Source: Cellulomonas sp. URHE0023 (GTDB taxonomy: Bacteria > Actinomycetota > Actinomycetes > Actinomycetales > Cellulomonadaceae). From it: a stretch of DNA of 64,000 nucleotides. Below, in pieces: positions 11,080 through 27,479 of this stretch. Numbering within the stretch: the first letter of the stretch is position 1; each line of letters opens with the position of its first letter. A program made the position numbers and the translations under genes. Under the pieces are notes generated by a model, which did no database searches, was not told the origin of the DNA, and saw nothing but the letters and a program-made list of their open reading frames with translations. The stretch is taken from the NCBI RefSeq assembly GCF_000688475.1, contig NZ_JIAN01000006.1, forward strand, positions 682,001 through 746,000, given 5' to 3'.

Positions 11080-12189
11080 TCAGGGTAGTACGGCCGCAGC
11101 CAGCCTCGACGTGGCGCCCGCGCGCACGAGCGGGATCACGTTCTCGCCGAACTCGACCGCGTCCGCGAGGAGGTCGTACCCGCGCAGCCCGAAGATCTCG
11201 AAGCCCAGGTCGACGTAGTCGAGAAGCGCATCGGCGACGGTCCGGTACGAGCCGACGATGGCCGTCGCACTCGTCGGCAGTCCTCCTGCGCCGGCGACCG
11301 TCGGGGTCCACAGCGCCCGGTCGTGCCGGTCGCCCGACGCCGCCAGCTCGGCCAGCCGCAGGTTCGCCGTGTTCTCCGGGAGCTTGCCGGGCTCGCGAGG
11401 CGCCTCGGTGAGGGTCCGTACCGTGCGTCGTGAGGCCAGCTCGTCGATGCGTGCCCGGATCGCGTGCGCCTTGGCCCACGCCTCGTCGTCCGTCGGCGCC
11501 ACGATCGGCCGGAAGGCGATCTGCAGACGAGGCGTCGGGCGGCCCGCCGCCGCGGCGAATCCACGCAGCAGCTCGACCTGCTGCGCCGTCGCCTCGAGCG
11601 GCTCACCGAAGAACGCGAACACGTCCGCGACGCGCGCACCGACCTCCAGGGCTCGACGCGACGCCCCGCCCGCGGAGAGCCCCGGACGAGGCTCGGACCG
11701 CGCCCGCAGGACGAAGTCCTGCGCCGCGTAGTACGGCCCGGCGTGCGTGAACGGCCGCGCGGAGGTCCACGACCGCAGCAGGACCTCGGCGTACTCGGCC
11801 AGCCGGTCGTAACGCGCGTCCTTGTCCAGGCCGTCGCCCTCGGCCAGCTGGTCGCTGGTCAGGCCTCCCGCGATGAGGTGCACCGTGACGCGCCCGCCGG
11901 ACGCGGTCTGCAGCGTCGCGAACGTCTTGGCGGCGAACGTGGGCGCCGAGACGTTGGGCCGGTGCGCGACGCGCAGCAGGATGCGGTCCGTGTGCGCGGA
12001 CGCCCACGCGGCAGCCTGCGCCGGGTCGGGACCGTCGGACGCGTACGGGAACAGGACGTGGTCCCAGCCGCTCGCCTCGTGCGCCCGCGCGATGTCCCGG
12101 GCGTACCCGGGGTCCCAGACGGGTCCGACGAGCGGCGTCGTCTCCGTCGACGGGTTGCCGTACCCCGCGCCCAGGAACTCCACGGACAC
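11080..12189 (-). CDS. LLM class flavin-dependent monooxygenase (SsuD-like)
   Basis: A 369-residue bacterial-luciferase-like protein with a TIM-barrel pattern: [63 protein letters not shown] (an FMN-phosphate-type loop), and a C-terminal [26 protein letters not shown]. It looks closest to the alkanesulfonate/organosulfur monooxygenases, which use reduced FMN and O2 to break C-S bonds. It needs a partner reductase; the nitroreductase at the operon head is a candidate. It starts 1 bp after the stop of the second LLM gene. The exact substrate is not evident. Confidence 0.85.
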
Positions 12190-12190
12190 G

Positions 12191-13297
12191 TCAGGCCACC
12201 ACGAGACGGTCGAGGCCTCGGGCGCGACCGGCGTCCTGCGGGCCCCACAGGGTCGTCGAGACCTCGGCCCGGACCAGCGGGACGACCTCCTCGGCGAACC
12301 GGCGCAGGACGTCCTGCTGCTGCTCGTACGGGAGCACCGGGTTCAGCGAGACGGACTGCAGGTCGTGCTGGTAGGAGCCGTGGTAGTCGAGGATCTTCTC
12401 GGCCACGCGCTCCGGGGAGCCGACGAGGGCCGGACCGCGCTCGACCGCGTCCTCGATGTGGGTGAACGACGAGACCTTCCCGGGCCGGGTCTCGCCGGCG
12501 TGCCGGGCCGCCATCCGTGCCGCGAAGCCCTCGTACACCGCGCGGTACTCCTCGGTCGCCTGCTCCGTCGTGTCCGCGAGGAACAGCCCCCCGGAGCCGG
12601 AGCCCACGTAGCCGACCGCCGGGTCGTGCCCGTGCGCCACCAGCTGCTCGCGGTACCGGTCGATGAGCACCTTGTAGTTCTCGCGCGGCTGCAGCGCGTT
12701 GGCGGACACGATCGGGTCGCCGTGCTTGGCGGCGAGGTCGACCGCGATCGTGCTGGTGGCCGAGCCGTGCCAGATGCGGAACGGTCCGTCGTACGGGCGC
12801 GGGAGCGTCGTGGCGTCGGTGAGCGGCGCGTGGAACGTGCCGTGCCAGTCGACGTGCTCCTGGCTCAGGAGGAGCGTGAGGAGCTCGTAGTTCTCCTCCA
12901 GGTAGTCGTACTGGTGCTCGAGCTCGAGCCCGAACAACGGGAAGTGCTTGTCCTCGTTGCCCTTGCCGATCACGATCTCGAGCCGGCCGCGAGACAGCAG
13001 GTCGATCGTCGCGTAGTCCTCGGCGACCCGGACCGGGTCGAGCAGACTCAGCACCGTCACACCCGTGCTGAGCAGGATCCGGTCCGTCGCCTGCGCGAGC
13101 GCGCCGAGCAGGACGGTGGGCGACGACGACAGGAAGTCGCCCGCGTGACGCTCGCCGACCGCGAACGCGTCGAGCCCGAGCTCCTCAGCCAGCACGGCCG
13201 TCTCGACGACACGCTCGAGGCGGGTCGAGGGGTCGAGCAGCTCGCCGGTCACCGGGTGAGGGCCGTGCGGGACGATGTCGAGAACCTGGAACTTCAC
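12191..13297 (-). CDS. LLM class flavin-dependent oxidoreductase (second paralogue)
   Basis: A 368-residue luciferase-like TIM-barrel protein of a different subfamily from its neighbour: ERVVETAVLAEELGLDAFAVGERH, RILLSTGVTVLSLLDPVRVAEDYATIDLLSRGRLEIVIGKGN, and a late GSPERVAEKILDYH. The GRLEIVIGKGN loop is where FMN is bound. It probably oxidises a small organic substrate with reduced FMN and O2. Its ATG overlaps the acetyltransferase stop (ATGA at 13294-13297). The neighbours suggest a role in organosulfur breakdown. This is an inference, as the fold alone does not reveal the substrate. Confidence 0.85.
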   Translation of the reverse strand: MKFQVLDIVPHGPHPVTGELLDPSTRLERVVETAVLAEELGLDAFAVGERHAGDFLSSSPTVLLGALAQATDRILLSTGVTVLSLLDPVRVAEDYATIDLLSRGRLEIVIGKGNEDKHFPLFGLELEHQYDYLEENYELLTLLLSQEHVDWHGTFHAPLTDATTLPRPYDGPFRIWHGSATSTIAVDLAAKHGDPIVSANALQPRENYKVLIDRYREQLVAHGHDPAVGYVGSGSGGLFLADTTEQATEEYRAVYEGFAARMAARHAGETRPGKVSSFTHIEDAVERGPALVGSPERVAEKILDYHGSYQHDLQSVSLNPVLPYEQQQDVLRRFAEEVVPLVRAEVSTTLWGPQDAGRARGLDRLVVA

Positions 13298-14292
13298 GGT
13301 CGTGCTCCTTGCGTGACGGGGACGGTGGAGAGGTCGAAGCCGAAGGCCAGCAACGTGCCGCCCGGGACCGTGCGTGTCTCACGCTCGGGGAGACGGACGA
13401 AGCCGAGACGCTCGTACAGCGCGTGGGCACCGAGCATCTGCGGGCCGGAGTTCATGACCACCCGGTGCAGGCCCCGCTGGCGGGCCAGCCCGATCACGTG
13501 CTTCGTGAGGAGCACCCCGATGCCGCGGCGTCGTGCGGCCGGAGCGACGGCGAGCAGCCGGAAGTCGAGCTCGCCGTCCTGGCCCAGCTCCGAGATGTGC
13601 TCGCCCGGCCGCGGGGTGGCAACCGTGCCGAGCAGCTCGCCCGTCGCCTGGTCTTGCGCGACCCACACCTCGTGCTCGCGGGCCCGGGTGGAGACGTCGG
13701 CGAGCGACGCGCGGTACTCGTCGCGGATGTCGTAGTCGTGGCTGTAGGCCTCGACCGAGAGCTGGGACACGCGCGCGTACTCGTGCGGCGCGACGAGGCG
13801 GACCAGCACGCCGGAGCGGGAGAAGTCGTAGCCGAAGACGACCAGCCCCTCGATGGTCTCGCGATCGACCAGCCGCACGAACCCGAGCCGGTGGTAGAGC
13901 CGTTGCGAGGCGGCGTTGCGGGCACCCGTGTCGAGCACGAGCCCGGAGACGCCCCACGCACGCGCGCGCTCGATCGACGCGGCCATCAGCGCGGCCCCGA
14001 CGCCGAGCCCGCGGGCCTCCGGCGCGGTGGTGAGCAACCGGACCTCGGCCTCGTCGGCGCGCGCCTGCCTCGTGTAGCCGGTCCCTGGCCGAACCAGGCT
14101 CACCGTGCCCACGAGCCGGCCCTCGTCCGCCGCGACCAGCAGGTCCCCCGCGGCCGCCCGTCCCGCAGCGTCACGCAGGAGCGCCAGCCGTTCCGGGTCC
14201 TTCGTCGGCCCGAACGGCCCCGTCGCGAAGCCGTGCTCCGTCAGCACCGCGACGGTGTCGAGCTCGTCGGGCCTTGCAGTGCGCACGATCAC
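13294..14292 (-). CDS. Tandem-domain GNAT N-acetyltransferase
   Basis: A 332-residue protein made of two GNAT folds. The acetyl-CoA pyrophosphate loops (motif A) are in APEARGLGVGAALM (about residue 92) and APAARRRGIGVLLTKH (about residue 266), and each half ends in a typical ASQRLYHRLGF or GAHALYERLGF segment. One or both domains could acetylate an amine with acetyl-CoA. GTG 14292 is chosen because it overlaps the M20 gene stop (GTGA). The pairing with an M20 amidohydrolase and LLM monooxygenases recalls the acetylate-oxidise-deacetylate route for S-modified cysteines in Bacillus subtilis. A simple stress or antibiotic acetylase remains possible. Confidence 0.85.
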   Translation of the reverse strand: MIVRTARPDELDTVAVLTEHGFATGPFGPTKDPERLALLRDAAGRAAAGDLLVAADEGRLVGTVSLVRPGTGYTRQARADEAEVRLLTTAPEARGLGVGAALMAASIERARAWGVSGLVLDTGARNAASQRLYHRLGFVRLVDRETIEGLVVFGYDFSRSGVLVRLVAPHEYARVSQLSVEAYSHDYDIRDEYRASLADVSTRAREHEVWVAQDQATGELLGTVATPRPGEHISELGQDGELDFRLLAVAPAARRRGIGVLLTKHVIGLARQRGLHRVVMNSGPQMLGAHALYERLGFVRLPERETRTVPGGTLLAFGFDLSTVPVTQGARP

Positions 14293-15635
14293 GAGAAGTA
14301 CCCCTCGACGTCCAGGACACCGCCGGCGTCCTCGAAGTCCTGGCGCACGGCCGCGCGCAGGTCCGGGTCTGACAGGTAGTCCAGCGCGGTCAGCGCGAGC
14401 CCGACGGCACCGTCGATCGCGGCCGCGTCGCCCCGCGGACCGCCGGCGACGTCCGCGAACTCGCGGGTGTGCAGCGCGACGCCCGGGTCGCTCACGGCGA
14501 TCATCGGGTGGATGCCCGGCAACCGGACGCTCACGTTCCCGAAGTCCGTGGACGCTGCCAAGGACTCCGGGACCACGCCCCCGGCGAGCACCGTCCGTCC
14601 GCGCTCCTCCTGGTGCACGGCCCAGCGCTCGGCGAGCGGACCGTTGGTGCGGACCGGGAGCGTGAACGGTGCCGCGTCCCAGACGAGCTCGGCCGTGGTG
14701 CCGGTGGCCAACGCGGCGCCCTGCGCGATGTCCGCGAGGCGCTCGGACAGGTCGCTGAGGGTGGTGGGGCTGGCCGACCGGACGTAGTACTCGACGGTGG
14801 CACGCTCGGGCACCACGCTCGGCCGCGTCCCACCTTCGAGCACCACGCCGTGCACGCGGTCGCTCGGCGGGATGTGCTGGCGCAGCATCGCGACCGCCTG
14901 GTAGTTCAGCGCAACCGCGTCGAGGGCGTTGCGCCCCATGAACGGGCTGGCCGACGCGTGCGCCGCGACCCCGTGGTAGGTGACCCGCAGCTGGCGCCGG
15001 CCCAGGAACGGGTGGTCGACCACGTCGAAGCCGAACGGGTGGACCATGATCGCGGCGTCCACCGCCACGAAGAACCCGTTCCGCGCCAAGATCTCCTTGC
15101 CGGAGCTGCCCTCCTCGGCCGGCGTGCCCAGCAGGAGCACCCGGCCTGGAAGGTCCAGCCCGTCCGCGACCGCCGCGGCCAGCGCGAGGAACGCCCCCGT
15201 CGCGGCACCGGCGATCAGGTGGTGCCCGCACGCGTGGCCGACCCCGGGTAGCGCGTCGTACTCGGCGATGATCGCGAGGGTCGGACCAGCGTCCTCACGG
15301 ACCGCACCGTCGTCAGGCCCGGCCTTGGTCAGGCCCGCGCGCAGCGACGTCGACAGCCCGTGCGAGCCCACGGTCGCGGGAACACCGTGCGCGCGGAGCA
15401 GGTCCGCGATCGCCGCGACGGAGCGGACCTCACGAAACGCTTCCTCGGCGTGCGAGTGGATCGCGTGCGCGACGTCGAGGACGTCCCCCTCGCCCGCGCT
15501 CGCCGCCCTGCGCACACGGGCCCGCGAGGACTCGTCGGCGCCCTCGAACGGGGAGGTCAGCGGCACGAACGACGCGCGGCGACGCTCGGTGCGCGCGTGC
15601 AGCTCGTCGAGGAACGCGGTGGACGGTGTGCTCAT
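14289..15635 (-). CDS. M20 family metallo-amidohydrolase
   Basis: A 448-residue zinc-type amidohydrolase or N-deacetylase. Metal and catalytic residues are visible: EYDALP (D128), the CGHH motif (C136, H138, H139), the catalytic Glu pair in GTPAEEG (E174, E175) and a C-terminal His region. The internal lid/dimerisation domain is recognisable (VTYHGVAAHASASPFMGRNALDA). Such enzymes cleave N-acyl or aminobenzoyl-amino acids. In this operon, between the rhodanese and acetyltransferase genes and with ATGA/GTGA overlaps on both sides, removal of an acetyl group from an N-acetyl sulfur amino acid is plausible. The AbgB-like aminobenzoyl-glutamate group is the main alternative. Confidence 0.88.
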   Translation of the reverse strand: MSTPSTAFLDELHARTERRRASFVPLTSPFEGADESSRARVRRAASAGEGDVLDVAHAIHSHAEEAFREVRSVAAIADLLRAHGVPATVGSHGLSTSLRAGLTKAGPDDGAVREDAGPTLAIIAEYDALPGVGHACGHHLIAGAATGAFLALAAAVADGLDLPGRVLLLGTPAEEGSSGKEILARNGFFVAVDAAIMVHPFGFDVVDHPFLGRRQLRVTYHGVAAHASASPFMGRNALDAVALNYQAVAMLRQHIPPSDRVHGVVLEGGTRPSVVPERATVEYYVRSASPTTLSDLSERLADIAQGAALATGTTAELVWDAAPFTLPVRTNGPLAERWAVHQEERGRTVLAGGVVPESLAASTDFGNVSVRLPGIHPMIAVSDPGVALHTREFADVAGGPRGDAAAIDGAVGLALTALDYLSDPDLRAAVRQDFEDAGGVLDVEGYFS

Positions 15636-16048
15636 CGGGTCGTCGGCTCCTCGGCGGGCAGGCCCGCGTCCTTCCAGGCCCCGAACCCGCCCTCGACGTG
15701 GGCCACGTTGGTGAAGCCCTTGGCCCGCAGCTCCGCGGCGACCGGGCCCGACCCTCGAACCGAGCCGCAGACGACCACGATCGGCGTGTCCAACGAGACG
15801 ACGGGCGCGTGGTGCGTGGCCGCGGTCAGGTCGAACTCGTCGTCGATGGCGTACCGGTCTCCGACCGTCGCACCGGGGATGGCGCCGGTGCGGGACCGGC
15901 CGGCCTCGCTGCGCACGTCGAGCAGGAAGGCGCCCTCCGTGACGCGCGCGGCGGCCTCCTGCGGGGTGACGGCGGGTGCGAGCGCGGACGCCTCCTCGAG
16001 GCTGAGGTGCTCGGCGGGCGCGCCGGGGCGGGATGTGGTCTCGGTCAT
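15632..16048 (-). CDS. Rhodanese-like sulfurtransferase
   Basis: A 138-residue single rhodanese domain. The active-site loop is C94-G-S-V-R-G-S100, so the catalytic Cys that carries the persulfide is kept. It follows VVSLDTPIVVV and precedes AAELRAKGFTNVAHVEGGFGAWKDAGLP, the standard C-terminus. It probably carries sulfane sulfur released in the pathway to an acceptor, or detoxifies it. The stop overlaps the M20 start (ATGA). A sulfur-transfer protein in this operon supports the organosulfur reading. Confidence 0.92.
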   Translation of the reverse strand: MTETTSRPGAPAEHLSLEEASALAPAVTPQEAAARVTEGAFLLDVRSEAGRSRTGAIPGATVGDRYAIDDEFDLTAATHHAPVVSLDTPIVVVCGSVRGSGPVAAELRAKGFTNVAHVEGGFGAWKDAGLPAEEPTTR

Positions 16049-16067
16049 GGGGCTCTCCTTGTGGGGC

Positions 16068-17588
16068 TCACGGCCTGGCGGCCGTCAGTACTGCGGACGT
16101 GGTGGGAACAGATGTGGTCGGGTGGGACGGGCGGTCGAGCCACGAGCAGACGAGGCCGCACAGGACCAGCACGACGGTGACCGCCAGACCCTCCGCGGTC
16201 GCCCGCCGGTAGGCAGGGATGTCACCGGGGACTGCCGACGCGAGCACGACGCCGCCCATGCCCGCGATGCAGAGCGTCGACGAGATCCGCTGCGACACCT
16301 GCAGGAAGCCCGCGGCGAGCCCGTGCGCACCGGCCGTCGCGTGGCCGAGCGTGAGCGACTGGTTCGGTACCGACGACAGCCCGCTCGCCGCGCCGGTGAG
16401 CGCCAGCGCGATCGCGATGCCCACGACGGCGACGGTCGGCGGTGCGAGCAGCACGAGGGCGATGGTGGCGAGGGTGCCGAGCGCGACGGCGACGAGCCCC
16501 CACGTCACCGCGGAACGCCCGCGTCCACCCGTGATGCGCCACGCGAACGCCGACGCGAGCCCACCCACCACGGCGGCGGGGGTGGATACCAGACCTGCAT
16601 GCAGGGCGGTGAGCCCGAGCGCCTCCTGGAGGAAGAGCGTCAGCACGAGAGACGAGCCCAGCGCCGCCCCGAAGGTGAACATCGCGACGGCCGTGCCCAG
16701 GGCGAAACCGCGGTTGTGCACCAGCTCCGGGAGGAGGATCGGGGTCCGCCCACGTCGGGCGTAGCGCCGCTCCCACACCACGAACGCCAGCACCGCGAGG
16801 ACGCACAGGGCTCCGTACACCACCGTCGGTATCCCGGCCGGACCGGTCGACCGGTCGCCGCCGCCACTCACGACGACCACCGGCACGAGGAGCGTGACGG
16901 TCGCCGCCGCCAGGAGACCGAGGCCCGGCAGGTCGAGGTCGGCCGTCCGAGGGACGGAGGTCCGGCGCGGGAGCCACCGCCAGCCCAGCACCGCGGCGGC
17001 GAGGCCGAACGGCACGTTGAAGACCATGACCCAGCGCCAGGCGTCGGGTGTGCCCGCAACGCCGATCACCGTGCCGCCGATGAGTGGTGCGACCACCGCC
17101 GCGAACGCGCCCACGGTGGCATACAGCCCCAGTGCGCGCGTGCGCTCGCGCCCCGGGAAGTGGTCCTGGACCAGCCCGATGACCTGCGGGTTGGCCGTTC
17201 CTGCACCGGCGCCCTGCAGCAGCCGGGCGAGCACCACCACGTCCGGGTCGTGCGCGGTCGCACCGACGATGCTGAACACCGAGAACGCCGCGACTCCTCC
17301 GATCAGCAGGCTGCGCCGACCACGGGCGTCGCCCAGCCGGCCCGCAGGCACGAGGGCGACGGCGAACGCCAACGAGTAGGCCGCGAGGATCCACTGGACC
17401 TCGCTCGTCCGGGCCGGGAGCGACCCGCGCATCGACGGGACCGCCACGGTGAGGATGGCCTGGTCCACGAGCGTGGCGAAGCCGACGACGAGGCACACCG
17501 CAAGGACACGGGTGCGGTCCACCGGTTCCGACTCGGACGCGCGGGCAACCACGGGTGCGGTACTGGTCATCGGCGTCGCGTCAGCCAT
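16068..17588 (-). CDS. MFS transporter, DHA2-like (14-helix) family
   Basis: A 506-residue integral membrane protein with about 14 hydrophobic helices. The DHA2 signatures are QWILAAYSLAFAVALVPAGRLGDARGRR (motif A region) and RLLQGAGAGTANPQVIGL (antiporter-type motif). It likely exports a compound with proton exchange: a toxic intermediate, or the non-sulfur remainder of the substrate. The start at 17588 (MADATP) overlaps the aldo-keto reductase stop by 8 bp; ATG 17570 (MTSTAP) is an alternative. The substrate is unknown. Confidence 0.88.
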   Translation of the reverse strand: MADATPMTSTAPVVARASESEPVDRTRVLAVCLVVGFATLVDQAILTVAVPSMRGSLPARTSEVQWILAAYSLAFAVALVPAGRLGDARGRRSLLIGGVAAFSVFSIVGATAHDPDVVVLARLLQGAGAGTANPQVIGLVQDHFPGRERTRALGLYATVGAFAAVVAPLIGGTVIGVAGTPDAWRWVMVFNVPFGLAAAVLGWRWLPRRTSVPRTADLDLPGLGLLAAATVTLLVPVVVVSGGGDRSTGPAGIPTVVYGALCVLAVLAFVVWERRYARRGRTPILLPELVHNRGFALGTAVAMFTFGAALGSSLVLTLFLQEALGLTALHAGLVSTPAAVVGGLASAFAWRITGGRGRSAVTWGLVAVALGTLATIALVLLAPPTVAVVGIAIALALTGAASGLSSVPNQSLTLGHATAGAHGLAAGFLQVSQRISSTLCIAGMGGVVLASAVPGDIPAYRRATAEGLAVTVVLVLCGLVCSWLDRPSHPTTSVPTTSAVLTAARP

Positions 17589-18549
17589 CCAGCAGGTGCG
17601 CCTGCGGGTGCCGGACACCCACCACCGACGAGGCCGGAACCGCATCGGTGATCACGGCCAGGTCCGCCGCGTCCAGGACGAGGTCGGCGGCGGCGACGTT
17701 GGACTCCAGGTGGGTGGCGTGTCGCGTTCCGGGGATCGGGACGATGTCGTCGCCCTGCGCAAGGGCCCAGGCGAGCGCCAGCCTGGCCGACGGCACACCG
17801 CGGGCATCGGCCAGCGCTCTCAGCCGCTCGACGAGACGGAGGTTGGAGGCGAACGCGTCACCCTGGTACCGCTCGTGGCGCGCGCGGGCGTCGCCGACCT
17901 CGATCGAGGCCGACGTCACGGCGCCGCTGAGGATCCCCCGACCGAGCGGCGAGAACGGGACGAAGCCGATGCCGAGCTCCCGCAGCGTGGGGAGCACCTC
18001 GTCCTCGACGCCACGGTGGAACAGTGAGTACTCGCTCTGCACGGCCGCGACCGGGTGCACGGCGTGCGCACGTCGGATCGTCGCGGCCGACGCCTCGGAG
18101 AGCCCGATGTACCGCGCCTTGCCGGCCCGCACGACGTCCGCGAGCGCCCCGACCGTCTCCTCGATCGGCACCTGCGGGTCCACCCGGTGCAGGTAGTAGA
18201 GGTCGACGTGGTCCCAGCCGAGCCGTTCGAGACTCGCGTCGATCGCACGGTCGACGTGCTCCGGCCGGCCGTCGACCTCACGGCCGGGGACGCCGAGGCC
18301 GACCTTGGTGGCCAGCACGACCTGATCCCGGTGCGGTGCCAGCAGCGGACCGAGGAGTCGTTCGTTCTCCCCGTCGGCGTAGGCGTCGGCCGTGTCGAAG
18401 AACGTCACGCCCAGCTCGAGCGCGCGTCGCACGGTCGCTACGGACTCGTCGCGGTCCGCGGTGCCGTACGCCCCGGTCAGCGACATCGCGCCGAGACCGA
18501 CGGACGACACCGACAGAGGGCCGATCTCCCGGCTCGTGGTGGTGCTCAT
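17581..18549 (-). CDS. Aldo-keto reductase
   Basis: A 322-residue NADPH-dependent (beta/alpha)8 oxidoreductase. The full catalytic tetrad is present: D52, Y57, K82 and H121 (FFDTADAYADG, LATKVG, YLHRVDP). NADP-binding residues lie in the late VPIPGTRHATHLESNVAA segment. It probably reduces an aldehyde or ketone generated when a monooxygenase cleaves a C-S bond, though it could be a generic detoxifier. Its ATG overlaps the nitroreductase stop (ATGA at 18546-18549). Confidence 0.92.
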   Translation of the reverse strand: MSTTTSREIGPLSVSSVGLGAMSLTGAYGTADRDESVATVRRALELGVTFFDTADAYADGENERLLGPLLAPHRDQVVLATKVGLGVPGREVDGRPEHVDRAIDASLERLGWDHVDLYYLHRVDPQVPIEETVGALADVVRAGKARYIGLSEASAATIRRAHAVHPVAAVQSEYSLFHRGVEDEVLPTLRELGIGFVPFSPLGRGILSGAVTSASIEVGDARARHERYQGDAFASNLRLVERLRALADARGVPSARLALAWALAQGDDIVPIPGTRHATHLESNVAAADLVLDAADLAVITDAVPASSVVGVRHPQAHLLDG

Positions 18550-19511: not shown

Positions 19512-19534
19512 ACAAGGAGTGCGGTCCCTACTTT
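19506..19534 (+). promoter_or_regulatory. Sigma-70 type promoter of the ABC importer / LLM operon
   Basis: The -35 TTGACG (19506-19511), a 17-bp spacer and the -10 TACTTT (19529-19534) form one of the best consensus promoters in the window. Transcription should begin near 19541, exactly at the 5' strand of the riboswitch P1 helix. Confidence 0.75.
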
Positions 19535-19640: not shown

Positions 19641-19670
19641 AAGCACAGACGACGAAGCGAGGACGACCCG

Positions 19671-19700
19671 ATGCGCGCCTACCCCCGGGGCACACGATGA
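19671..19700 (+). CDS. Nine-residue leader peptide coupled to the permease start
   Basis: ATG 19671 has a good ribosome binding site (GAGGA 19659-19663, 7-nt spacing) and encodes MRAYPRGTR. Its TGA overlaps the permease ATG (ATGA at 19697-19700). The permease start itself has no clear ribosome binding site, so translation may depend on coupling from this short frame. It sits just after the riboswitch hairpin. It could be a real leader or only a ribosome-loading site; sequence alone cannot decide. Confidence 0.4.
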   Translation: MRAYPRGTR

Positions 19701-20698
19701 ACCGCTACGTGCTCGCACGCCTCGGACAGGCGCTCCTCGTGCTGTGGGCGGCGTACACGGTGTCGTTCGTCGTGCTCTACGCCCTCCCGGGCGACCCGGT
19801 CTCCCTCATGTTCGGCAGCGAGTCCTCGGACGTCACACCGGCCCAGCTCGCCGCGCTGCGGGCGCAGTACGGCCTCGACCAGTCCCTGCCCGTGCAGTAC
19901 GCGACCCACCTGGGGGCCGCGCTGCGGGGAGACCTCGGCTCGTCCGTCGTGCTGCACCGACCGGTCGCGGCGCTGATCGCCGAGGCGATCCCGCCGACCG
20001 CGGCCATCGCCGCGGCGGCGTTCGTCCTCGCGCTGCTCGTCGGCGGTGCGCTCGCCATCGTCGCCACGCTGACGCGCTCTCGAGGACTGTCCAACGCGCT
20101 CCTCGGCGTCCCGCCGCTCGGCGTCGCGATCCCCTCGTTCTGGTTCGGTCTGATGCTCGTCCAGTGGTTCTCGTTCGCCCACCCGATCTTCCCGGCGGTC
20201 GGGAACAAAGGGTTCTCCTCGATCGTGCTCCCGGCGGTGACGCTTGCGGTGCCGACGGCCGCGCTCATCGCGCAGATGCTGTCCAGGAGCCTGCAGCACA
20301 GCCTGCGCCAGCCCTATGTCGACACCGCGCGCGCCAAGGGCGTGGGCCCGGTTCGGGTGCACTTCCGGCACGCGTTGCGCAACGCCTCGCTCCCCGCGCT
20401 CACCGTGACCGGACTTGTGGTCGGCGAGCTGCTTGCCGGCGCCGTGGTCACCGAGACCGTGTTCTCCCGCCCCGGGATCGGGCGGCTGACGGCAACCTCC
20501 GTCACCGCACAGGACATCCCCGTGGTGCAAGGCATCGTCCTGTTCGCCGCCGCCGTCTTCGTGCTGGTCAACCTCGCGGTCGACCTGCTCTACCCGCTGC
20601 TCGACCCCCGCATCGTGCGGCACTCGAAGGCCGCCAGGAGCCAGCCGGCCACCGCGCAGGCCGCCCCCACGCTCGAGCCCGCCACGGCCGGGGTGTGA
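19697..20698 (+). CDS. ABC transporter permease, DppB/OppB-like
   Basis: A 333-residue inner-membrane permease of the dipeptide/oligopeptide/nickel importer family. The N-terminal MNRYVLARLGQALLVLWAAY helix and GDPV segment, YGLDQSLPVQYATHLGAALRGDLGSS, and the EAA-type loop (ARAKGVGPVRVHFRHALRNA) are standard. About six membrane helices. The stop is followed 1 bp later by the second permease ATG. As the first full gene after the SAM riboswitch, it is expected to be expressed when SAM is low. Confidence 0.93.
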   Translation: MNRYVLARLGQALLVLWAAYTVSFVVLYALPGDPVSLMFGSESSDVTPAQLAALRAQYGLDQSLPVQYATHLGAALRGDLGSSVVLHRPVAALIAEAIPPTAAIAAAAFVLALLVGGALAIVATLTRSRGLSNALLGVPPLGVAIPSFWFGLMLVQWFSFAHPIFPAVGNKGFSSIVLPAVTLAVPTAALIAQMLSRSLQHSLRQPYVDTARAKGVGPVRVHFRHALRNASLPALTVTGLVVGELLAGAVVTETVFSRPGIGRLTATSVTAQDIPVVQGIVLFAAAVFVLVNLAVDLLYPLLDPRIVRHSKAARSQPATAQAAPTLEPATAGV

Positions 20699-20699: not shown

Positions 20700-21614
20700 A
20701 TGACAGAGCTCCTCGACGACGTCACCGCCACCTCGAAGGACCGGTTCGCCGACGCCCTGCGCGAGCGGCAGGACGAGCAGACCCGCGGACGGCTCGCCTG
20801 GCTCCTCGACATCCTGCGCAAGCCCGGCCTGCTCGTCGCGTCGGTCTGGCTCGCACTCATCCTCGCGGCGGCGTTCGCACCGCAGCTGCTGGCTCCCGGT
20901 GACCCGCTCGTCGGCGTACCGGCCGACAAGCTCCAGGCGCCGTCCTCCGCACACTGGTTCGGCACCGACCAGATCGGGCGCGACCTGTACACGCGGGTGG
21001 TGCACGGGACGCACCTGACCCTCGAGGCCGCGCTCGTCGCCGTGGGCGTAGGGCTGCTCGTCGGTGCAGCGGTAGGACTGCTCGCCGGCTTCGTCGGGGG
21101 CGTCTTCGACGACGTCGTCATGCGGATCATCGACGTCCTGCTCTCCATCCCGGGGCTCCTGCTGTCGCTCGCCCTGATCACCGCGCTCGGCTTCGGCACC
21201 ATCAAGGTGGCGATCGCGGTCGGCCTGGCCTCGGTCGCGACGGTGTCGCGCATCATGCGCTCCGAGGTCCTGCGCGTCCGCTCGTCGGTGTACGTCGAGG
21301 CCGCGCACGCCGGCGGCAGCCGCTGGTGGTCCGTGCTCTTCCAGCACGTGCTGCCCAACGCGTCCGGTCCCGTCATCGTCCTGGCCGCGCTCCAGCTCGG
21401 CGCCGCGATCCTCGCCGTGTCCGCCCTCAGCTTCCTCGGGTTCGGCGCTCCCCCGCCGGCGCCCGAGTGGGGAGCGCTCGTCTCGGGCGGGCGCGACTAC
21501 CTGCGCACCTCGTGGTGGCTGACCACGCTCCCCGGCCTGACGATCGCGCTCACCGTGCTCGCGGCCGGCCGCATCTCCCGCGCCCTCGACCGCCACGAAG
21601 GGAACGACGCATGA
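20700..21614 (+). CDS. ABC transporter permease, DppC/OppC-like
   Basis: A 304-residue partner permease with the DppC-type N-terminal extension, SAHWFGTDQIGRDLYTRVVHGT, and the EAA loop VEAAHAGGSRWWSVLFQHVLPNA. About six helices, forming the heterodimeric channel with the preceding permease. The stop overlaps the ATPase start (ATGA at 21611-21614), so the three genes are tightly coupled. Confidence 0.93.
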   Translation: MTELLDDVTATSKDRFADALRERQDEQTRGRLAWLLDILRKPGLLVASVWLALILAAAFAPQLLAPGDPLVGVPADKLQAPSSAHWFGTDQIGRDLYTRVVHGTHLTLEAALVAVGVGLLVGAAVGLLAGFVGGVFDDVVMRIIDVLLSIPGLLLSLALITALGFGTIKVAIAVGLASVATVSRIMRSEVLRVRSSVYVEAAHAGGSRWWSVLFQHVLPNASGPVIVLAALQLGAAILAVSALSFLGFGAPPPAPEWGALVSGGRDYLRTSWWLTTLPGLTIALTVLAAGRISRALDRHEGNDA

Positions 21615-23242
21615 GCGAGCGCCTGCTCACCGTCACCGATCTCGCGGTCGCGTACCGGACCCGTCGCGGCACGGTCCGCGCCGTGCGCGACGTCTCGCTG
21701 CACGTCGACGCCGGTGAGACCGTCGCTGTGGTCGGCGAGTCCGGTTCCGGCAAGTCGACCACGGCCGCGGCCGTCGTCCGGTTGCTCGCGCCGGCGGCGG
21801 TGATCGACCACGGGAGCATCGACCTCCTCGGCAACGACGTGGTGAACGCCTCGCAGCGGGCGTTGCGCACCGTGCGCGGCATCCTCGTCGGGCTCGTGCC
21901 GCAGGACCCGACCGTGTCCCTCAACCCGGTGACCCGCATCGGCGAGCAGGTGGCCGAGGTGCTGCGGATCCACGGGCTCGCCGACCGCAAGAACGCGCAC
22001 GTCGAGGCGATCGAGTCGCTGCGACGTGCGGGTCTGGCTCAGCCGGAGGTCCGCGCACGCCAGTACCCCCACGAGCTGTCGGGAGGCATGCGGCAGCGGG
22101 TGCTCATCGCCATCGCGCTCGCCGCGAAGCCGCGCCTGCTCGTGGCCGACGAGCCGACGAGCGCGCTGGACGTCACGGTGCAGCGCCAGATCCTGGACCA
22201 CCTCGAACAGCTGACCACGGGGACCGGGACCGGCATCCTGCTGATCACGCACGACCTCGGTGTGGCCGCCGACCGAGCGGACCGCATCGTGGTGATGTCG
22301 CAGGGCCGGGTCGTCGAGCAGGGCACGCCCGACGAGGTGCTCGGGTCACCCAGCGACCCGTACACGCGCGAGCTGCTCGCGGCGGCACCGAGCCTGCGCG
22401 GTGCCCGCATCATCGCCGCCCCGGTGCCACGGTCCGCGGTCCCCGTCCTCGAGGCCCGGAACCTGACCAAGGAGTTCCCGCTCCCCCGGTCCGCCGGCGG
22501 CGGCACCCTGCGGGCGGTCGACGACGTGTCGTTCGTCCTGCCGAAGGGGCGGACGCTGGCACTCGTGGGCGAGTCCGGCTCGGGCAAGTCCACGACCGCA
22601 CGCCTCGCGCTGCGGCTCGCCGAGCCGACGTCCGGGTCGGTGCTGTTCGACGGCGCGGACGTCACCCACACCCACGGACCAGCGCTGCGGCTCCTGCGCC
22701 GACGGATGCAGGTGGTCTACCAGAACCCGTACGCGTCGCTCGACCCGCGGTTCTCCGTCCAGCGGATCATCACCGAGCCGCTGCGCGCCTTCGCGGTGGG
22801 GTCCCGTACCGAGCGCGCGGCCCGGGCCGTTGAGCTGCTGGACGTCGTCGCGCTGCCCCGCACCGTCCTGCAGCGCCGGCCCGCCGAGCTGTCGGGCGGG
22901 CAGCGGCAGCGCGTCGCGATCGCCCGCGCCCTGTCGCTGAACCCCGAGCTCGTCGTGCTGGACGAGCCGGTGTCCGCGCTGGACGTCTCGGTGCAGGCGC
23001 AGATCCTCGACCTGCTGGCCAACCTCCAGGCCGAGCTCGGGCTGTCGTACCTGTTCATCTCGCACGACCTCGCCGTGGTGCGGCAGGTGGCCCACGAGGT
23101 CGCCGTCCTCCAGCACGGGCGCGTCGTCGAGCAGGGGCACGTCGAGGACGTGTTCGCCCGACCCACCGACGCGTACACCGCGGAGCTGCTCTCAGCGATC
23201 CCTGGCGGTCGCGTGCGCGTCGGCCAGGGGGGTGCGTCGTGA
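21611..23242 (+). CDS. ABC transporter fused dual ATPase (DppD-DppF type)
   Basis: A 543-residue protein with two complete nucleotide-binding domains. Each has a Walker A (GESGSGKST, about residues 41 and 320), a signature (LSGGMRQRV and LSGGQRQRV) and a Walker B (LLVADEPTSALD and LVVLDEPVSALD). It joins in one chain the DppD- and DppF-like ATPases that drive peptide-type import. The fusion is common in actinobacteria. The true start is ATG 21611, overlapping the permease stop. Longer readings of this frame are out of frame with real protein. Confidence 0.94.
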   Translation: MSERLLTVTDLAVAYRTRRGTVRAVRDVSLHVDAGETVAVVGESGSGKSTTAAAVVRLLAPAAVIDHGSIDLLGNDVVNASQRALRTVRGILVGLVPQDPTVSLNPVTRIGEQVAEVLRIHGLADRKNAHVEAIESLRRAGLAQPEVRARQYPHELSGGMRQRVLIAIALAAKPRLLVADEPTSALDVTVQRQILDHLEQLTTGTGTGILLITHDLGVAADRADRIVVMSQGRVVEQGTPDEVLGSPSDPYTRELLAAAPSLRGARIIAAPVPRSAVPVLEARNLTKEFPLPRSAGGGTLRAVDDVSFVLPKGRTLALVGESGSGKSTTARLALRLAEPTSGSVLFDGADVTHTHGPALRLLRRRMQVVYQNPYASLDPRFSVQRIITEPLRAFAVGSRTERAARAVELLDVVALPRTVLQRRPAELSGGQRQRVAIARALSLNPELVVLDEPVSALDVSVQAQILDLLANLQAELGLSYLFISHDLAVVRQVAHEVAVLQHGRVVEQGHVEDVFARPTDAYTAELLSAIPGGRVRVGQGGAS

Positions 23243-23306: not shown

Positions 23307-24950
23307 ATGTCTTTGCGACGACCTTCGCGCCGTCACGCCGGCCTCCTGGCCGGCATCGCCACCACTGCCTTCCTGCTCGCGGCGTGCTCGTCGGGCACGA
23401 CGGAGGCGGGATCCGACGAGAGCGCCTCGACCGCCGCAGACGCCCCCGTCGACGGCGGCGATCTCACGTTCGCGATCGGCAACGACCCCATCTCGCTGAA
23501 CCCGTCCGGCGTCGGATCCGGCAACGACACCTTCTACGTGACCCGCCAGCTCGTCGACTCCCTGCTCTGGCAGGACCCTGCCGACGGCTCGCTCAAGCCG
23601 TGGCTGGCCACGAAGTGGGAGGCGAACGCCGACGCGACGCAGTTCACGTTCACGCTGCGCGACGACGTGACCTTCTCCGACGGCACGCCCTTCACCGCTG
23701 AGTCGGTGAAGAAGAACTTCGACGACGCCATCGCGGCTGGTGCGAAGAGCTCCGCCGCAGCCAGCTTCATCGGCTACGCCGGCACGACCGTCGTCGACCC
23801 GACGACCGTCACCGTCGCCTTCACGACGCCCAACGCAGCGTTCCCGCAGGCTTCGTCCTCGGTCGCCCTCGGGCTGGTCGCCGACTCGACGCTCGCGATC
23901 CCCTTCGACGACCGCGCGAGCGGTACGGGCGTGGTCGGCACCGGGCCGTTCACCCTCGACCACTACACCAAGGACACGGAGACGGTCCTGAAGGCCCGGC
24001 CCGAGTACGCCTGGGGTCCGGCCGGCCGCGAGAACACCGGCAAGGCGCACCTCGACTCCGTCACGTTCCAGGTGATCCCCGAGGCGGGCGTGCGGACCGG
24101 AGCGCTCACCTCCGACCAGGTCAACGTGATCGGAGGCGTGCAGCCGACCGACATCGCGACGCTCGAGGACTCGGGCTTCGACGTGGTGCACCGGGCCAAC
24201 CCCGGGATCACGTTCGGGCTCACGTTCAACGAGGCCGGTGCCCTCGGCTCCGACCCGGCCGTACGCGAGGCCATCGCGCTCACCGTGAACCCGACCGAGG
24301 TCCGCGACACCGCCCTCAACGACGGCTTCGCCGTGGCACAAGGACCGCTCGCGAGCACGACGCCGGGGGTCGCCGACGTCAGCACGAGCATCGTGACCGA
24401 CCCGAAGAAGGCCGCGAGCGTCCTCGAGAAGGCCGGCTGGGCCAAGGGTGCGGACGGCATCTACGCCAAGGACGGCAAGCCGCTGGCACCGGTCCTGGTC
24501 TGGATCACCAACTTCTCGCCGAACCAGACGTCGGTGGAGCTCATCCAGCAGGAGCTCAAGGCCAACGGGATCGACGCACAGCTCTGGAGCGGTGCGGTGC
24601 CCGACTTCCAGGCCAAGCTCAAGGAGGGCAGTTTCGACCTGGTCTGGGGCAACCTGAGCAGGGCCGACGGTGACGTGCTGCGCACGCAGTACTCCACGGC
24701 GGCGACCAACTTCTACAAGCTGGCCGACCCCGACCTGGAGGCGCTGCTGCAGAAGCAGCTGACGATCGGTGACCCGACCGAGCGCGACGCCGTCCTCGCC
24801 GACGCGCAGGAGCGGCTGGTCACGCAGCACCACGTGGTCCCGGTGCACGAGCTGACCACGTTCCTCGGGCTCGACACGGACGTGCACGACGTGCAGCTCG
24901 GGGCGGACTCGCGCCTCGACCAGCTGACGCAGGCATGGATCGCGGGCTGA
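23307..24950 (+). CDS. ABC transporter substrate-binding lipoprotein (family 5)
   Basis: A 547-residue extracellular solute-binding protein of the DppA/OppA family. Its lipoprotein signal peptide has lipobox LAAC with the lipidated Cys at residue 27, followed by a Ser/Thr/Asp linker. Family features are GGDLTFAIGNDPISLNPSG, VTRQLVDSLLWQDP, VTFSDGTPFTAESVKKNFDD and GTGPFTLDHY. It captures the substrate and delivers it to the two permeases. The start is set by AAGGAG nine bases upstream. Family 5 proteins bind peptides, nickel complexes, opines or other solutes, so the ligand is inferred only from context. Confidence 0.93.
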   Translation: MSLRRPSRRHAGLLAGIATTAFLLAACSSGTTEAGSDESASTAADAPVDGGDLTFAIGNDPISLNPSGVGSGNDTFYVTRQLVDSLLWQDPADGSLKPWLATKWEANADATQFTFTLRDDVTFSDGTPFTAESVKKNFDDAIAAGAKSSAAASFIGYAGTTVVDPTTVTVAFTTPNAAFPQASSSVALGLVADSTLAIPFDDRASGTGVVGTGPFTLDHYTKDTETVLKARPEYAWGPAGRENTGKAHLDSVTFQVIPEAGVRTGALTSDQVNVIGGVQPTDIATLEDSGFDVVHRANPGITFGLTFNEAGALGSDPAVREAIALTVNPTEVRDTALNDGFAVAQGPLASTTPGVADVSTSIVTDPKKAASVLEKAGWAKGADGIYAKDGKPLAPVLVWITNFSPNQTSVELIQQELKANGIDAQLWSGAVPDFQAKLKEGSFDLVWGNLSRADGDVLRTQYSTAATNFYKLADPDLEALLQKQLTIGDPTERDAVLADAQERLVTQHHVVPVHELTTFLGLDTDVHDVQLGADSRLDQLTQAWIAG

Positions 24951-24964
24951 CCGCATCACGACGA

Positions 24965-24990: not shown

Positions 24991-25033
24991 CGTCACGCCC
25001 GGACCGGACCACCCCTCTTGGAAGGCAGGACCC

Positions 25034-25069
25034 ATGACCGCGCCTCTGCTCAGGACGCCACTGACATGA
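25034..25069 (+). CDS. Eleven-residue leader peptide coupled to LLM start
   Basis: ATG 25034 has a GGCAGGA ribosome binding site close upstream and encodes MTAPLLRTPLT. Its TGA overlaps the ATG of the LLM gene (ATGA at 25066-25069). It repeats the arrangement seen at 19671-19700. A real peptide is uncertain; a coupling device is the simplest reading. Confidence 0.35.
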   Translation: MTAPLLRTPLT

Positions 25070-26148
25070 CGCTGCACATCGCTCTCGAGGTCGACGGCGC
25101 CGGTGCGCATCCCGCAGCCGCCTACGCCACCTCGCTGTCCCCGGACCGGCTGCTGTCCGCCGACCACCTGCGTCGCACGGTCGCCGCCGCCGAGAACGCG
25201 GGCGTCTCGTTCGTCACCTTCGACGACTCGTTGACGCGACCGTCCGGGGTCGACGCGGTCACCCGCGCAGCGTTCGTCGCGCCGCTCACCTCCCGCATCG
25301 GCCTGGTGCCGTTGGCGCACCCGGCGGTGACCGAGCCGTTCCACCTCGCGGCGCAGGTGGCCGCGCTCGACCACGCCTCGACGGGCCGCTCGGGCTGGCT
25401 CGTCGGCTCCGGTCCGGTTCCCGGTGCACGTGCGGCCCTCGACCGGCCCGTCGCCGACGGGCAGGACCTTCTCGACGAGACGCGGGACGTGGTCCGCGTG
25501 GTCCGTGACCTGTGGGACTCGTGGGAGGACGACGCGGTCGTCCGCGACACCGCGACCGGCCGGTACATCGACCGCGACCGGCTGCACTACGTCGACTTCA
25601 CGAGCGGCGGGTCGGGACCGTTCGCGGGACCGGGCCTGCGTGACGCACCCGACGGCTCACGGGCGCCGTTCACGGTCAAGGGACCGCTGATCGTCCCCCG
25701 CGGCCCGCAGGGACAGCCGGTGGTCGTCGCGCGCGCCGGGACGGTGCCGACCGAGCTCCTCGATGTCGCGCTGGTCCAGACGCCCGAGTCGTCCGGCGCC
25801 CCGCTCACATTCCTCGACGTGGCGGTCACGCTCGACACCCAGCGCGCCACGGCTGCCGACCGGCTTGCCGCACTGGACGAGGTCACGCCGTCCGGCGACG
25901 TCGTCCGGTGGACGGGCTCCGCCGACGGGCTCGTGGAGCTCCTGCTCTCCCTGCGGGGCGTCGTCGACGGCGTGCGACTGCTGCCGTCGGTGCTCGAGGA
26001 GGAGCTGCCCGAGATCGTCCGTCGGGTTCTTCCGGCGCTGCGGGTCGCCCGTGCCGTTCCCACCCCACGCCCCGGGGCCACCCTGCGGGACACCCTGCGC
26101 CTCCCCCGTCCGACCAACCGCTTCGCGACGCTCGAGGAGATCTCGTGA
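25066..26148 (+). CDS. LLM class flavin-dependent monooxygenase, divergent (YtmO-like position)
   Basis: A 360-residue protein with a weakened luciferase-like pattern: LSADHLRRTVAAAENAGVSFVTFDDS, SRIGLVPLAHPAVTEPFHLAAQVAALDHASTGRSGWLVG, and DETRDVVRVVRDLWDSWEDDAVV, the usual region before the FMN-site loop. The C-terminal third is shorter and less typical than in SsuD or the NtaA family. Its stop overlaps the next gene (GTGA), so it works with, or alongside, the NtaA/SnaA-type enzyme. That pairing mirrors YtmO and YtnJ in B. subtilis. The start at 25066 follows the short coupled frame; an in-frame TTG at 25018 is an alternative. Confidence 0.75.
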   Translation: MTLHIALEVDGAGAHPAAAYATSLSPDRLLSADHLRRTVAAAENAGVSFVTFDDSLTRPSGVDAVTRAAFVAPLTSRIGLVPLAHPAVTEPFHLAAQVAALDHASTGRSGWLVGSGPVPGARAALDRPVADGQDLLDETRDVVRVVRDLWDSWEDDAVVRDTATGRYIDRDRLHYVDFTSGGSGPFAGPGLRDAPDGSRAPFTVKGPLIVPRGPQGQPVVVARAGTVPTELLDVALVQTPESSGAPLTFLDVAVTLDTQRATAADRLAALDEVTPSGDVVRWTGSADGLVELLLSLRGVVDGVRLLPSVLEEELPEIVRRVLPALRVARAVPTPRPGATLRDTLRLPRPTNRFATLEEIS

Positions 26149-27479
26149 CCGACCTTCTGCGCCCGCACGCCCATGTGCACTTCGGCGTCTTCTTCCAGGG
26201 CGTCAACCACTCGACCATCTGGTCCGACCCGGCGAGCGGCTCACAGACCGACTTCGAGTCGTTCCGTCAGATCATCCAGACGGCCGAGCGCGGGCTGTTC
26301 GACGCCTTCTTCCTGGGAGAGGGCCTGCGGCTGCGCGAGCAGAACGGGGTGCTGCACGACCTCGACGTCGTCGGACGCCCCGACGCCATCACGCAGCTGG
26401 CGGCCCTTGCTGCGGTCACCACGCACATCGGCCTGGTCGCCACGCAGAACGTGACCTACAACGACCCGGCCGACCTCGCGCGCCGACTGGCCAGCCTGGA
26501 CCTGCTCTCCGGGGGACGTGGTGCGTGGAACATCGTCACCACGGACAACGCGTGGACCGGGGAGAACTTCCGGCGCGGCGGCTGGCTCGACCACAGCCTG
26601 CGGTACGTCCGCGCGGGCGAGTTCGTACGCGCGGCCCAGGCGATCTGGGACGGCTCCCCCGACGGCCAGGTGCGGTTCTCCGGCGAGACGCTCGACATCA
26701 CGGTGACCCCCACCGTGCCGCGCAGCCCGCAGGGTCACCCGGTCCTGTTCCAGGCCGGCGACTCTGCCGACGGCCGCGACTTCGCCGCCTCTCACGCGGA
26801 GGTGATCTTCTCCGCGCACGGCACCGACTACGACGACGCGTACGCGTTCGCCGAGGACGTCCGCCGCCGTACGGTCGCGGCAGGCCGGCCGCAGGACGAC
26901 GTCAAGATCCTGCCCGGGACCCAGTTCGTCCTCGCCGACACCGACGACGACGCCTGGGAGAAGGCGCGCTGGGTCAAGGAGCAGCAGGTCACGCCCGCGA
27001 CCGCCCTGTCCCTGCTGGGACAGGTCTGGGGCGAGGACCTCTCCGGGTACGACCCCGACGGACCCGTGCCCAGCCACGACCCGGTCATCGAGATCATCGG
27101 CGAGACGCGCGGCACCCGCCGGCACGGCAAGGACCCCCGCGAGATCGCCCAGGAGTGGCGAGCCCGGTCGGAGGCCGAGAACCTGTCGATCCGTCAGCTC
27201 GTGATCGCCCAGGAGCGCCAGCGCGGGTTCGTCGGCTCCGGGGCCACGGTCGCCGAGGAGCTCATCCGCTGGGTGCGTACGGGTGCGACGGACGGGTTCA
27301 ACATCACGCCGTGGATCATCCCGAGCGGTCTGGACGACGTGGTCGACCTGCTCGTCCCGGAGCTGCAGGAGCGGGGCGCCTACCGCACCGAGTACACGGG
27401 CAGCACGCTCCGTGAGCACCTCGGTCTGCGCGACCCTCTGACGCGTCGGACGCCGAGCCCCGTTCCGGTCACCGCCTGA
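26145..27479 (+). CDS. NtaA/SnaA/DszA family FMN-dependent monooxygenase (YtnJ-like)
   Basis: A 444-residue class C flavin monooxygenase. HFGVFFQGVNHSTIWSDP at the N-terminus, SFRQIIQTAERGLFDAFFLGEG, LASLDLLSGGRGAWNIVTTDN, and PQGHPVLFQAGDSADGRDFAA are diagnostic of the family containing nitrilotriacetate, pristinamycin and dibenzothiophene-sulfone monooxygenases and B. subtilis YtnJ. Such enzymes use reduced FMN and O2, often cleaving C-S or C-N bonds. GTG 26145 overlaps the previous stop. It is the last gene of the SAM-riboswitch operon. Confidence 0.9.
   Translation: MTDLLRPHAHVHFGVFFQGVNHSTIWSDPASGSQTDFESFRQIIQTAERGLFDAFFLGEGLRLREQNGVLHDLDVVGRPDAITQLAALAAVTTHIGLVATQNVTYNDPADLARRLASLDLLSGGRGAWNIVTTDNAWTGENFRRGGWLDHSLRYVRAGEFVRAAQAIWDGSPDGQVRFSGETLDITVTPTVPRSPQGHPVLFQAGDSADGRDFAASHAEVIFSAHGTDYDDAYAFAEDVRRRTVAAGRPQDDVKILPGTQFVLADTDDDAWEKARWVKEQQVTPATALSLLGQVWGEDLSGYDPDGPVPSHDPVIEIIGETRGTRRHGKDPREIAQEWRARSEAENLSIRQLVIAQERQRGFVGSGATVAEELIRWVRTGATDGFNITPWIIPSGLDDVVDLLVPELQERGAYRTEYTGSTLREHLGLRDPLTRRTPSPVPVTA

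Follow-up and report, generated by a model that had tools for sequence, protein, structure and literature searches.

Luciferase-like monooxygenases (LLMs) of soil actinobacteria are mostly uncharacterised, and genes for them are numerous in the soil bacterium Cellulomonas sp. URHE0023 (32 matches in 4.2 Mb). Four of these belong to a set of 14 genes arranged in two divergent rows between proB and proA, within a stretch of 64,000 nucleotides (contig NZ_JIAN01000006.1, positions 682,001 to 746,000) that is called the window here. The closest described systems are the scm (yxe), ytn and yha loci of Bacillus subtilis, where the importer of the scm/yxe cluster is of the amino-acid type. In the accessible text of two reports, a GNAT acetyltransferase, an LLM, an M20 protein and an ATP-binding cassette (ABC) importer in one locus make up the scm/yha/ytn logic (PMC12757645; PMC9706529), and a cluster of the scm/yxe type is defined as at least three of YxeK, YxeL, YxeMNO, YxeP and YxeQ being clustered (PMC9706529). 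The Cellulomonas locus combines the same four kinds of protein, with the LLM, GNAT and M20 of that definition present at family level only, and its LLM4 is of the same family as YtnJ/CmoJ of B. subtilis. Unlike the Bacillus loci, it has a family-5 importer with a fused ATPase, four LLMs including a probable flavin-less partner, an M20 protein nearer to Xaa-Arg dipeptidase and HmrA, a tandem GNAT, a rhodanese and control by a SAM-IV (S-adenosylmethionine, SAM) riboswitch; the published scm logic would be a fair analogy for it, not an identity. We read the locus as an inserted, SAM-responsive island for organosulfur scavenging, with a probability of about 0.82. The general kind of system is known, and what is new is this version of it, with its probable heterodimeric LLM.

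Other described systems resemble parts of the island. LLM1 (11080..12189, minus strand) is nearest to the desulfonating enzymes SsuD/MsuD/SfnG, and a flavin reductase is present, but LLM1 scores 145.4 bits against the SsuD family (TIGR03565), far below the cut-off of 518.2, and the importer is not SsuABC-like; the matches of LLM1 to SsuD and to the alkanesulfonate monooxygenase 7jv3 reach 120 and 102 bits. The importer plus LLM cassette of families TIGR04028/TIGR04027 (KPN_01854/KPN_01858), as annotated in A. vitis and Rhizobium NXC24, has a substrate-binding protein (SBP), two permeases, a fused ATPase and an LLM in that order, like the island. TIGR04028 is the nearest named family of the island SBP, but both curated cut-offs are missed (SBP 318.1 of 468.5 bits, LLM2 80 of 412.9 bits), and the island has different LLMs and extra enzymes; a literature search on these families surfaced only KPN_01858, in one proteomics paper. 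For Gordonia NB4-1Y using organosulfonates as sulfur source, the text examined of PMC7661421 reports the nitrilotriacetate (NTA) monooxygenase gene RS14155 as raised and the LLM gene RS14160 as expressed. The neighbouring tags suggest an LLM pair like that of the island, a likeness by description, whereas the same text contains no linkage to a riboswitch or an importer.

The plus-strand row opens with a SAM-IV aptamer (19542..19651), a member of Rfam RF00634 by its covariance model (81.7 bits against a gathering score of 38, E 5e-13), as the leader of an operon of two permeases, the fused ATPase, the family-5 SBP, LLM3 and LLM4, which overlap or sit no more than about 120 bp apart. The minus-strand row runs from an NfrA/NfsA-type reductase through an aldo-keto reductase, an MFS transporter, a rhodanese, the M20 protein and the tandem GNAT to LLM2 and LLM1. 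Gene classes were called with Pfam/NCBIfam, and all those named in a first-pass annotation of this DNA were found, within the span that it had given, 11080-27479, which is exactly the interval between proA and proB. It had also placed half of the block behind a SAM riboswitch, as the aptamer ahead of importer-LLM3-LLM4 bears out. Its gene list was refined in that the GNAT has two domains, the two ATPases are fused and one of the four LLMs (25066-26148) is probably without a flavin site.

The association of SAM-IV with these genes recurs in related bacteria (G and L numbers denote our genomes and loci). The aptamer lies 5' of the island importer in 10 of the 12 loci with a leader available, window included (that of G035 is cut off), and ahead of LLM3 in all nine loci with a paralogous LLM3-LLM4-SBP-ABC operon (L057-L065). 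The four SAM-IV sites of the Cellulomonas sp. URHE0023 genome precede the island importer, an LLM3/LLM4-like pair, a ytm-like operon and a cysteine-desulfurase-like gene. Across 25 Cellulomonas genomes, 24 of which have a site, 60 SAM-IV sites were collected together with their downstream sequence, to a maximum of 9 kb or to the contig end where this came sooner, and LLMs near them were looked for by tblastn using nine LLM sequences as queries. Some of these stretches overlap, L160 and L162 almost entirely, and sites from related genomes do not count as independent. A cysteine-desulfurase-like gene follows 24 of the 60 sites, an LLM lies within 6.5 kb on the same strand in 18 (on the opposite strand in 2), and five further sites (L153, L154, L155, L173 and L180) precede the island importer with no LLM inside that distance. 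In G058 and G011, a SAM-IV stands directly before the operon equivalent to the minus-strand row, which in G058 is an NTR-MFS-Rho-M20-GNAT-LLM2 operon (NTR, the reductase; Rho, the rhodanese) with its own SAM-IV (L183). Such ties to SAM-IV, which involve particular LLM families, an LLM pair and an importer, offer a testable sulfur regulon and a route to substrate assignment. In a literature search that left most subscription papers uncovered, no paper paired a SAM-IV riboswitch with a luciferase-like monooxygenase, none joined SAM-IV, monooxygenase, sulfur and riboswitch, and none joined Cellulomonas and SAM-IV.

Two further genes behind SAM-IV were noted in the same survey. The cysteine-desulfurase-like gene, coding for a class V aminotransferase (L128 and orthologues), stands behind a strong SAM-IV (>100 bits) in 24 of the 25 Cellulomonas genomes, and in G058 an aminotransferase/MocR-like pyridoxal phosphate protein (L044 16750-18126) lies between a SAM-IV and LLM3.

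The gene set is an inserted, mosaic island, as 17 of the 18 cluster-free genomes among the 25 have proB next to proA, at an aligned distance of 46-218 bp; in the remaining one, no proA was found in the stretch examined. By synteny calls that rest on tblastn, the other seven genomes (G000, G006, G015, G035, G037, G039 and G058) carry this or a related cluster at the proB-proA site, and in the window the two genes are 16.5 kb apart. The left border is proA (9756..11075, minus strand, NF001221, 598 bits) and the right border proB (27533..28678, minus strand, TIGR01027, 406.6 bits), followed by obg. As proA starts only 4 bp beyond the end of LLM1 (gap 11076-11079), transcription of the sulfur operon may extend into proline biosynthesis.

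An SBP of at least 73% identity occurs in 13 of 81 Cellulomonas genomes, window included (12 of the 80 others), and that of Cellulomonas sp. URHD0024 is 90% identical. Each of the 13 loci has proB, adjoined by obg, no more than about 3 kb from the SBP, and proA is inside the examined stretch for 7. The 12 other loci all have the importer with a varying share of the other genes, from the importer plus two or three enzymes to nearly the whole set in the stretches examined. Related arrangements occur elsewhere, namely LLM3-LLM4-SBP-permease-permease-ATPase (L057-L065) and rhodanese-LLM1-LLM2-SBP-permease-permease-ATPase (L066, L069, L071-L073; L070 is without the rhodanese in the stretch examined). 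Two genomes carry a second SBP alongside the first, 37-38% identical and oppositely oriented, adjacent to proB (L044 6574-8148, L049 15688-17325).

A search for the same gene set in other genomes had been proposed in the first-pass annotation, and the set recurs in Cellulomonas, in other genera of the order and, cut down to an importer and an LLM, on plasmids from Streptomyces and Alphaproteobacteria. This recurrence across genomes ruled out plain chance clustering. A search of 347 genomes from the order gave GNAT matches in 19 and LLM3 matches in 29 at the set limits (4 Cellulomonas in each case), and 8 of the 19 GNAT matches span both GNAT domains, the rest one. Ten of the 15 GNAT-chosen and ten of the 25 LLM3-chosen loci of other genera were taken, mostly the best-scoring. 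LLMs were present in 8 of the 10 GNAT-chosen loci (none in L096 and L097); all 10 LLM3-chosen loci had an adjoining LLM4, 4 had an M20 and 7 a related importer, whose SBP is no more than 32-33% identical in L112 and L113. Of these 20 loci, 8 showed a SAM-IV. On plasmids, 56 records had an SBP relative; eight contexts were examined together with one found via LLM3, seven of which are annotated (Streptomyces, Roseomonas, A. tumefaciens twice and near-identical, A. vitis, Rhizobium and Ketogulonicigenium; the S. chartreusis and Nonomuraea stretches are unannotated). LLM genes are annotated beside the importer in all seven, and a sulfurtransferase with two rhodanese stretches in two (Streptomyces and Ketogulonicigenium). 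When seven LLM-annotated proteins from these plasmids were compared with Pfam, six matched Bac_luciferase; the short partner of A. tumefaciens matched nothing.

Heterodimeric LLMs are a theme known from bioluminescence. In the accessible text of PMC8027225, structure 7e36 is the heterodimer NtfO1-NtfO2, in which NtfO1 has no lid and flavin mononucleotide (FMN) was docked into NtfO2, and NtfO1-NtfO2 and StmO1-StmO2 hydroxylate a macrolactone precursor. As in those pairs, LLM3 and LLM4 are a short and a long LLM side by side, the short one without the lid stretch, whereas LLM3-LLM4 sits in a SAM-controlled importer operon. LLM4 (26145..27479, plus strand, its start overlapping the LLM3 stop) belongs to the NtaA/DmoA/YtnJ family of FMN monooxygenases (TIGR03860, 350.8 bits against a cut-off of 279.7) and matches chain B of 7e36 at 241 bits, YtnJ at 201 bits and also the NTA and ethylenediaminetetraacetate (EDTA) monooxygenases. 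LLM3 (25066..26148, plus strand; its open reading frame (ORF) opens at 25018) is a short NtaA/YtnJ-like LLM and matches chain A. A homologue of LLM4 directly follows that of LLM3 in 37 of 38 distinct LLM3 homologues, the exception being the ytm-like operon of the same genome as the island.

When LLM3 was aligned with the NTA monooxygenase 3sdo, both ends matched and the middle of 3sdo was left unmatched. Residues equivalent to the flavin contacts of NtfO2, in columns whose correspondence was read from the alignment by the author, are kept in the LLM4 set (one Thr 35/35, Tyr 35/35, Phe 32/35, His 21/35) and are mostly lost in the LLM3 set (Thr 6/33, Tyr 0/33, Phe 0/33, His 1/33). The LLM3 model (pLDDT 85.8) has an LLM fold nearest to NTA monooxygenase, YtnJ and BdsA; 7e36_A ranks sixth. 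The genes thus show the features of the NtfO1-NtfO2 type, two adjoining LLM genes with a short partner without the lid stretch and most flavin contacts. Because of the adjacency, the chain matches, the missing middle, the lost contacts and the model, LLM3 is probably a non-flavin partner of LLM4, as in NtfO1-NtfO2, which is the new point here, and the two may form a heterodimer. Should LLM3-LLM4 act in sulfur assimilation as an obligate heterodimer, a theme of bioluminescence and macrolide tailoring would reach primary metabolism.

In the mechanism that we propose, scarcity of SAM would allow the SAM-IV riboswitch to permit expression of the importer/LLM3-LLM4 operon, a polarity that is presumed, and the divergent operon from the reductase to LLM1 would probably be co-regulated from the shared promoter region. 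The importer would take up an organic sulfur compound, predicted to be amino-acid- or small-peptide-like rather than a plain alkanesulfonate. The reductase (18546..19364, minus strand, with a predicted start; PF00881, nitroreductase fold), whose matches in the PDB are NfrA2, NfrA1, YcnD and a flavin reductase and which confirms the flavin reductase candidate of the earlier annotation, is the likely supplier of FMNH2 to the LLMs. LLM4, with the flavin-less LLM3, and LLM1 and LLM2 would then oxidise at or beside sulfur and break C-S bonds, acting on different substrates or on successive intermediates; GNAT and M20 would add and remove, or trim, the N-acyl or peptidyl part, and the rhodanese would transfer the released sulfane sulfur. 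A wider claim can be put forward only tentatively and with the odds against it, namely that the island represents an undescribed class of SAM-riboswitch-controlled sulfur scavenging in Actinomycetota, with a heterodimeric LLM that has a flavin-less short subunit, a NikA/Gsi-like importer for a peptide- or mercapturate-like S-conjugate, and a mosaic island spreading into the proB-proA junction.

The first-pass annotation had read the locus after Bacillus ytm/yxe. As a true pathway of that type, GNAT would N-acetylate an S-modified cysteine, an LLM would cleave it and M20 would deacetylate N-acetylcysteine, which we hold possible but doubtful. The presence of GNAT, LLM, M20 and ABC importer in one locus favours it, as it matches the scm/yha/ytn logic in the accessible text (PMC12757645, PMC9706529), and so does the LLM4-YtnJ match. 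Moreover, in G005, G012 and G030 a ytm-like operon continues into a rhodanese and LLM1, a direct bridge between both gene sets. In contrast, the importer is of family 5 (SBP PF00496, permeases of the Opp/Nik type) and not of the amino-acid type, a difference that the annotation had pointed out itself. The M20 protein (14289..15635, minus strand), an amidohydrolase/dipeptidase-like member of TIGR01891 (224.7 bits against a cut-off of 153.75), has Xaa-Arg dipeptidase (203 bits) and HmrA (179 bits) as nearest solved relatives and reaches only 36 bits with YxeP, which does not suggest a YxeP-like deacetylase. The tandem GNAT (13294..14292, minus strand, two PF00583 stretches, distant PDB matches only) bears little resemblance to the ytm-like GNAT encoded elsewhere in its genome (26 bits). 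That genome has a separate operon that fits ytm better than the island does, also behind SAM-IV (NtaA-type LLM, GNAT, permease, ATPase, family-3 SBP, flavin adenine dinucleotide (FAD) oxidase and MsnO8-type LLM), as well as another M20 with a higher TIGR01891 score (311 bits), and many importer plus LLM loci are without GNAT and M20 in the stretches examined. By sequence scores, then, none of importer, M20, GNAT and LLM1 qualifies for the Bacillus yxe/ytm or Ssu families. What survives from that reading is SAM-controlled scavenging of sulfur, LLM chemistry and the link to ytm-like operons, whereas its step-by-step scheme is weak or unsupported; the aldo-keto reductase, to which it had assigned a step, turned up in no locus searched other than the window and its nearest relative (L001/L039).

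The importer consists of permease 1 (19697..20698, plus strand, Opp/Nik type, PF00528 and PF19300, Opp2B/NikB-like in NCBIfam below cut-offs), permease 2 (20700..21614, plus strand, PF00528), the fused double ATPase (21611..23242, plus strand, two PF00005 stretches in the YejF/GsiA architecture; YejF 531 and GsiA 498 bits, both below cut-off) and the SBP, a lipoprotein (23307..24950, plus strand, PF00496, 238 bits; model pLDDT 87.3). Its substrates might be S-conjugated dipeptides or mercapturate-like molecules, products of glutathione or mycothiol detoxification, taken up by a Gsi/Dpp-like importer, opened by an M20 dipeptidase and cleaved at C-S by the LLMs. The fused ATPase, as in GsiA/YejF, agrees with this, as do the M20 nearest to a dipeptidase and the top fold matches of the SBP, which include YliB, presumably the GsiB protein, and glutathione-binding GbpA. 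However, no gamma-glutamyl-cleaving enzyme or mycothiol amidase was found among the locus genes, and the fold matches do not separate ligands, NikA-type proteins scoring at least as well, so that we consider this substrate class rather unlikely. Naming a substrate from the SBP fold was given up, since binders of nickel, of glutathione and of peptides all occur among the best matches, together with CtaP, a cysteine-associated protein, and do not point to any one ligand.

An EDTA gene cluster with a family-5 importer is known, and the NikA/CntA-like SBP, the NtaA/EmoA-family monooxygenases and the flavin reductase could belong to catabolism of an aminopolycarboxylate (EDTA/NTA-like) or an opine or metallophore. 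The sequence relatives of the SBP (NikA and other nickel SBPs), CntA among its fold matches and the NTA and EDTA monooxygenases matched by LLM4 point that way. We regard it as very unlikely in view of the SAM-IV control, the nearness of LLM1 to SsuD, the co-operonic ytm-like genes and the fact that in three separate lineages (Cellulomonas, Streptomyces and Ketogulonicigenium) importer and LLM are accompanied by a rhodanese or sulfurtransferase. A tailoring or detoxification cluster for a specialised metabolite (LLMs, MFS, aldo-keto reductase, GNAT), SAM-regulated by happenstance, is hardly credible despite the DHA2-type exporter, the heterodimeric LLM of macrolide biosynthesis in the accessible text of PMC8027225 and a Streptomyces plasmid homologue that adjoins polyketide-type genes, since no biosynthetic core enzymes are among the window locus genes, a complete importer is present and the SAM-IV association is repeated across 25 genomes.

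Several observations weigh against organosulfur scavenging under SAM control. Substrate and chemistry of the island are predictions from sequence, and LLM families also act on C-N and other bonds. By sequence, the nearest solved relatives of the SBP are nickel-binding proteins (NikA and other nickel transporter SBPs), its fold search mixes nickel, glutathione and peptide binders, and the MFS and aldo-keto reductase have no clear sulfur role. A second flavin-side Thr, kept in 35/35 LLM4, is also kept in 16/33 LLM3, though not in that of the window. SAM-IV was not detectable in two of the 12 importer loci (G006 and G060, with our own model and Rfam), nor in L069-L073, L075 and L076 in the stretches scanned, nor in 12 of the 20 loci of other genera in the stretch examined, and 13 of the 60 sites fall into none of the assigned groups. 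A second SAM riboswitch, serving the minus-strand operon, was rejected for the window because the Rfam search detected none on that strand, though the relatives G058 and G011 have one there. Folding of the leader was not better than that of shuffles (z 1.0), with no clear sequestration of the ribosome-binding site, and a scan for consensus sigma-70 sites gave no promoter-like site in 10000-29000 at its threshold.

A promoter-like block, its function presumed from sequence, precedes the aptamer (19477..19534, plus strand), with a ATCTCGTGAGATG box followed by TTGACG-N17-TACTTT. It is loosely conserved in an alignment of 12 regions, window included, in which a TGAGAC-like box and TTGAC-like and TACTTT-like hexamers are loosely common to all, including the two without SAM-IV; a mirror-image box on the reductase side was read by eye in about 8 of the 12. 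Block and mirror-image box together suggest a regulator site shared between the divergent operons. In G006 and G060 (L041 10380-11040, L043 18600-18870), with no detectable SAM-IV, the promoter-like block is kept with a GAGACG box, and a switch from RNA to protein control is possible there. TGAGAC-N10-20-TTGAC was rejected as a marker of a genome-wide regulon, since the genome that carries the island has only 5 exact matches to it, against 0 to the backwards control; one of the 5 lies in the divergent region of the island. The terminator scan gave a single terminator-like match, which falls within the SBP gene on its minus strand and is fewer than the shuffle mean of 2.3, and no such site on the plus strand of the island.

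The other minus-strand genes code for LLM2 (12191..13297, PF00296, 246 bits), a CE1758 / Atu2307 (2I7G)-like protein with 228 bits to TIGR04036 (cut-off 479.1) and 160 bits to 2i7g; the single-domain rhodanese (15632..16048, PF00581) with a CGSVRG loop; the DHA2-type MFS transporter (ORF 16068..17645, likely start 17585, PF07690; TIGR00711 at 152 bits, below cut-off); and the accessory aldo-keto reductase (ORF 17581..18648, likely start near 18543, PF00248). On the Streptomyces plasmid, an LLM fused to a hemerythrin domain adjoins the importer cluster (L118 17121-18665). Just beyond the end of the window lies another LLM cluster (G000:C6:748896-760411; L077 2896-14411), with three LLMs, an FAD aromatic hydroxylase-like protein, two ABC ATPases, two permeases and an SBP that has weak similarity to that of the window.

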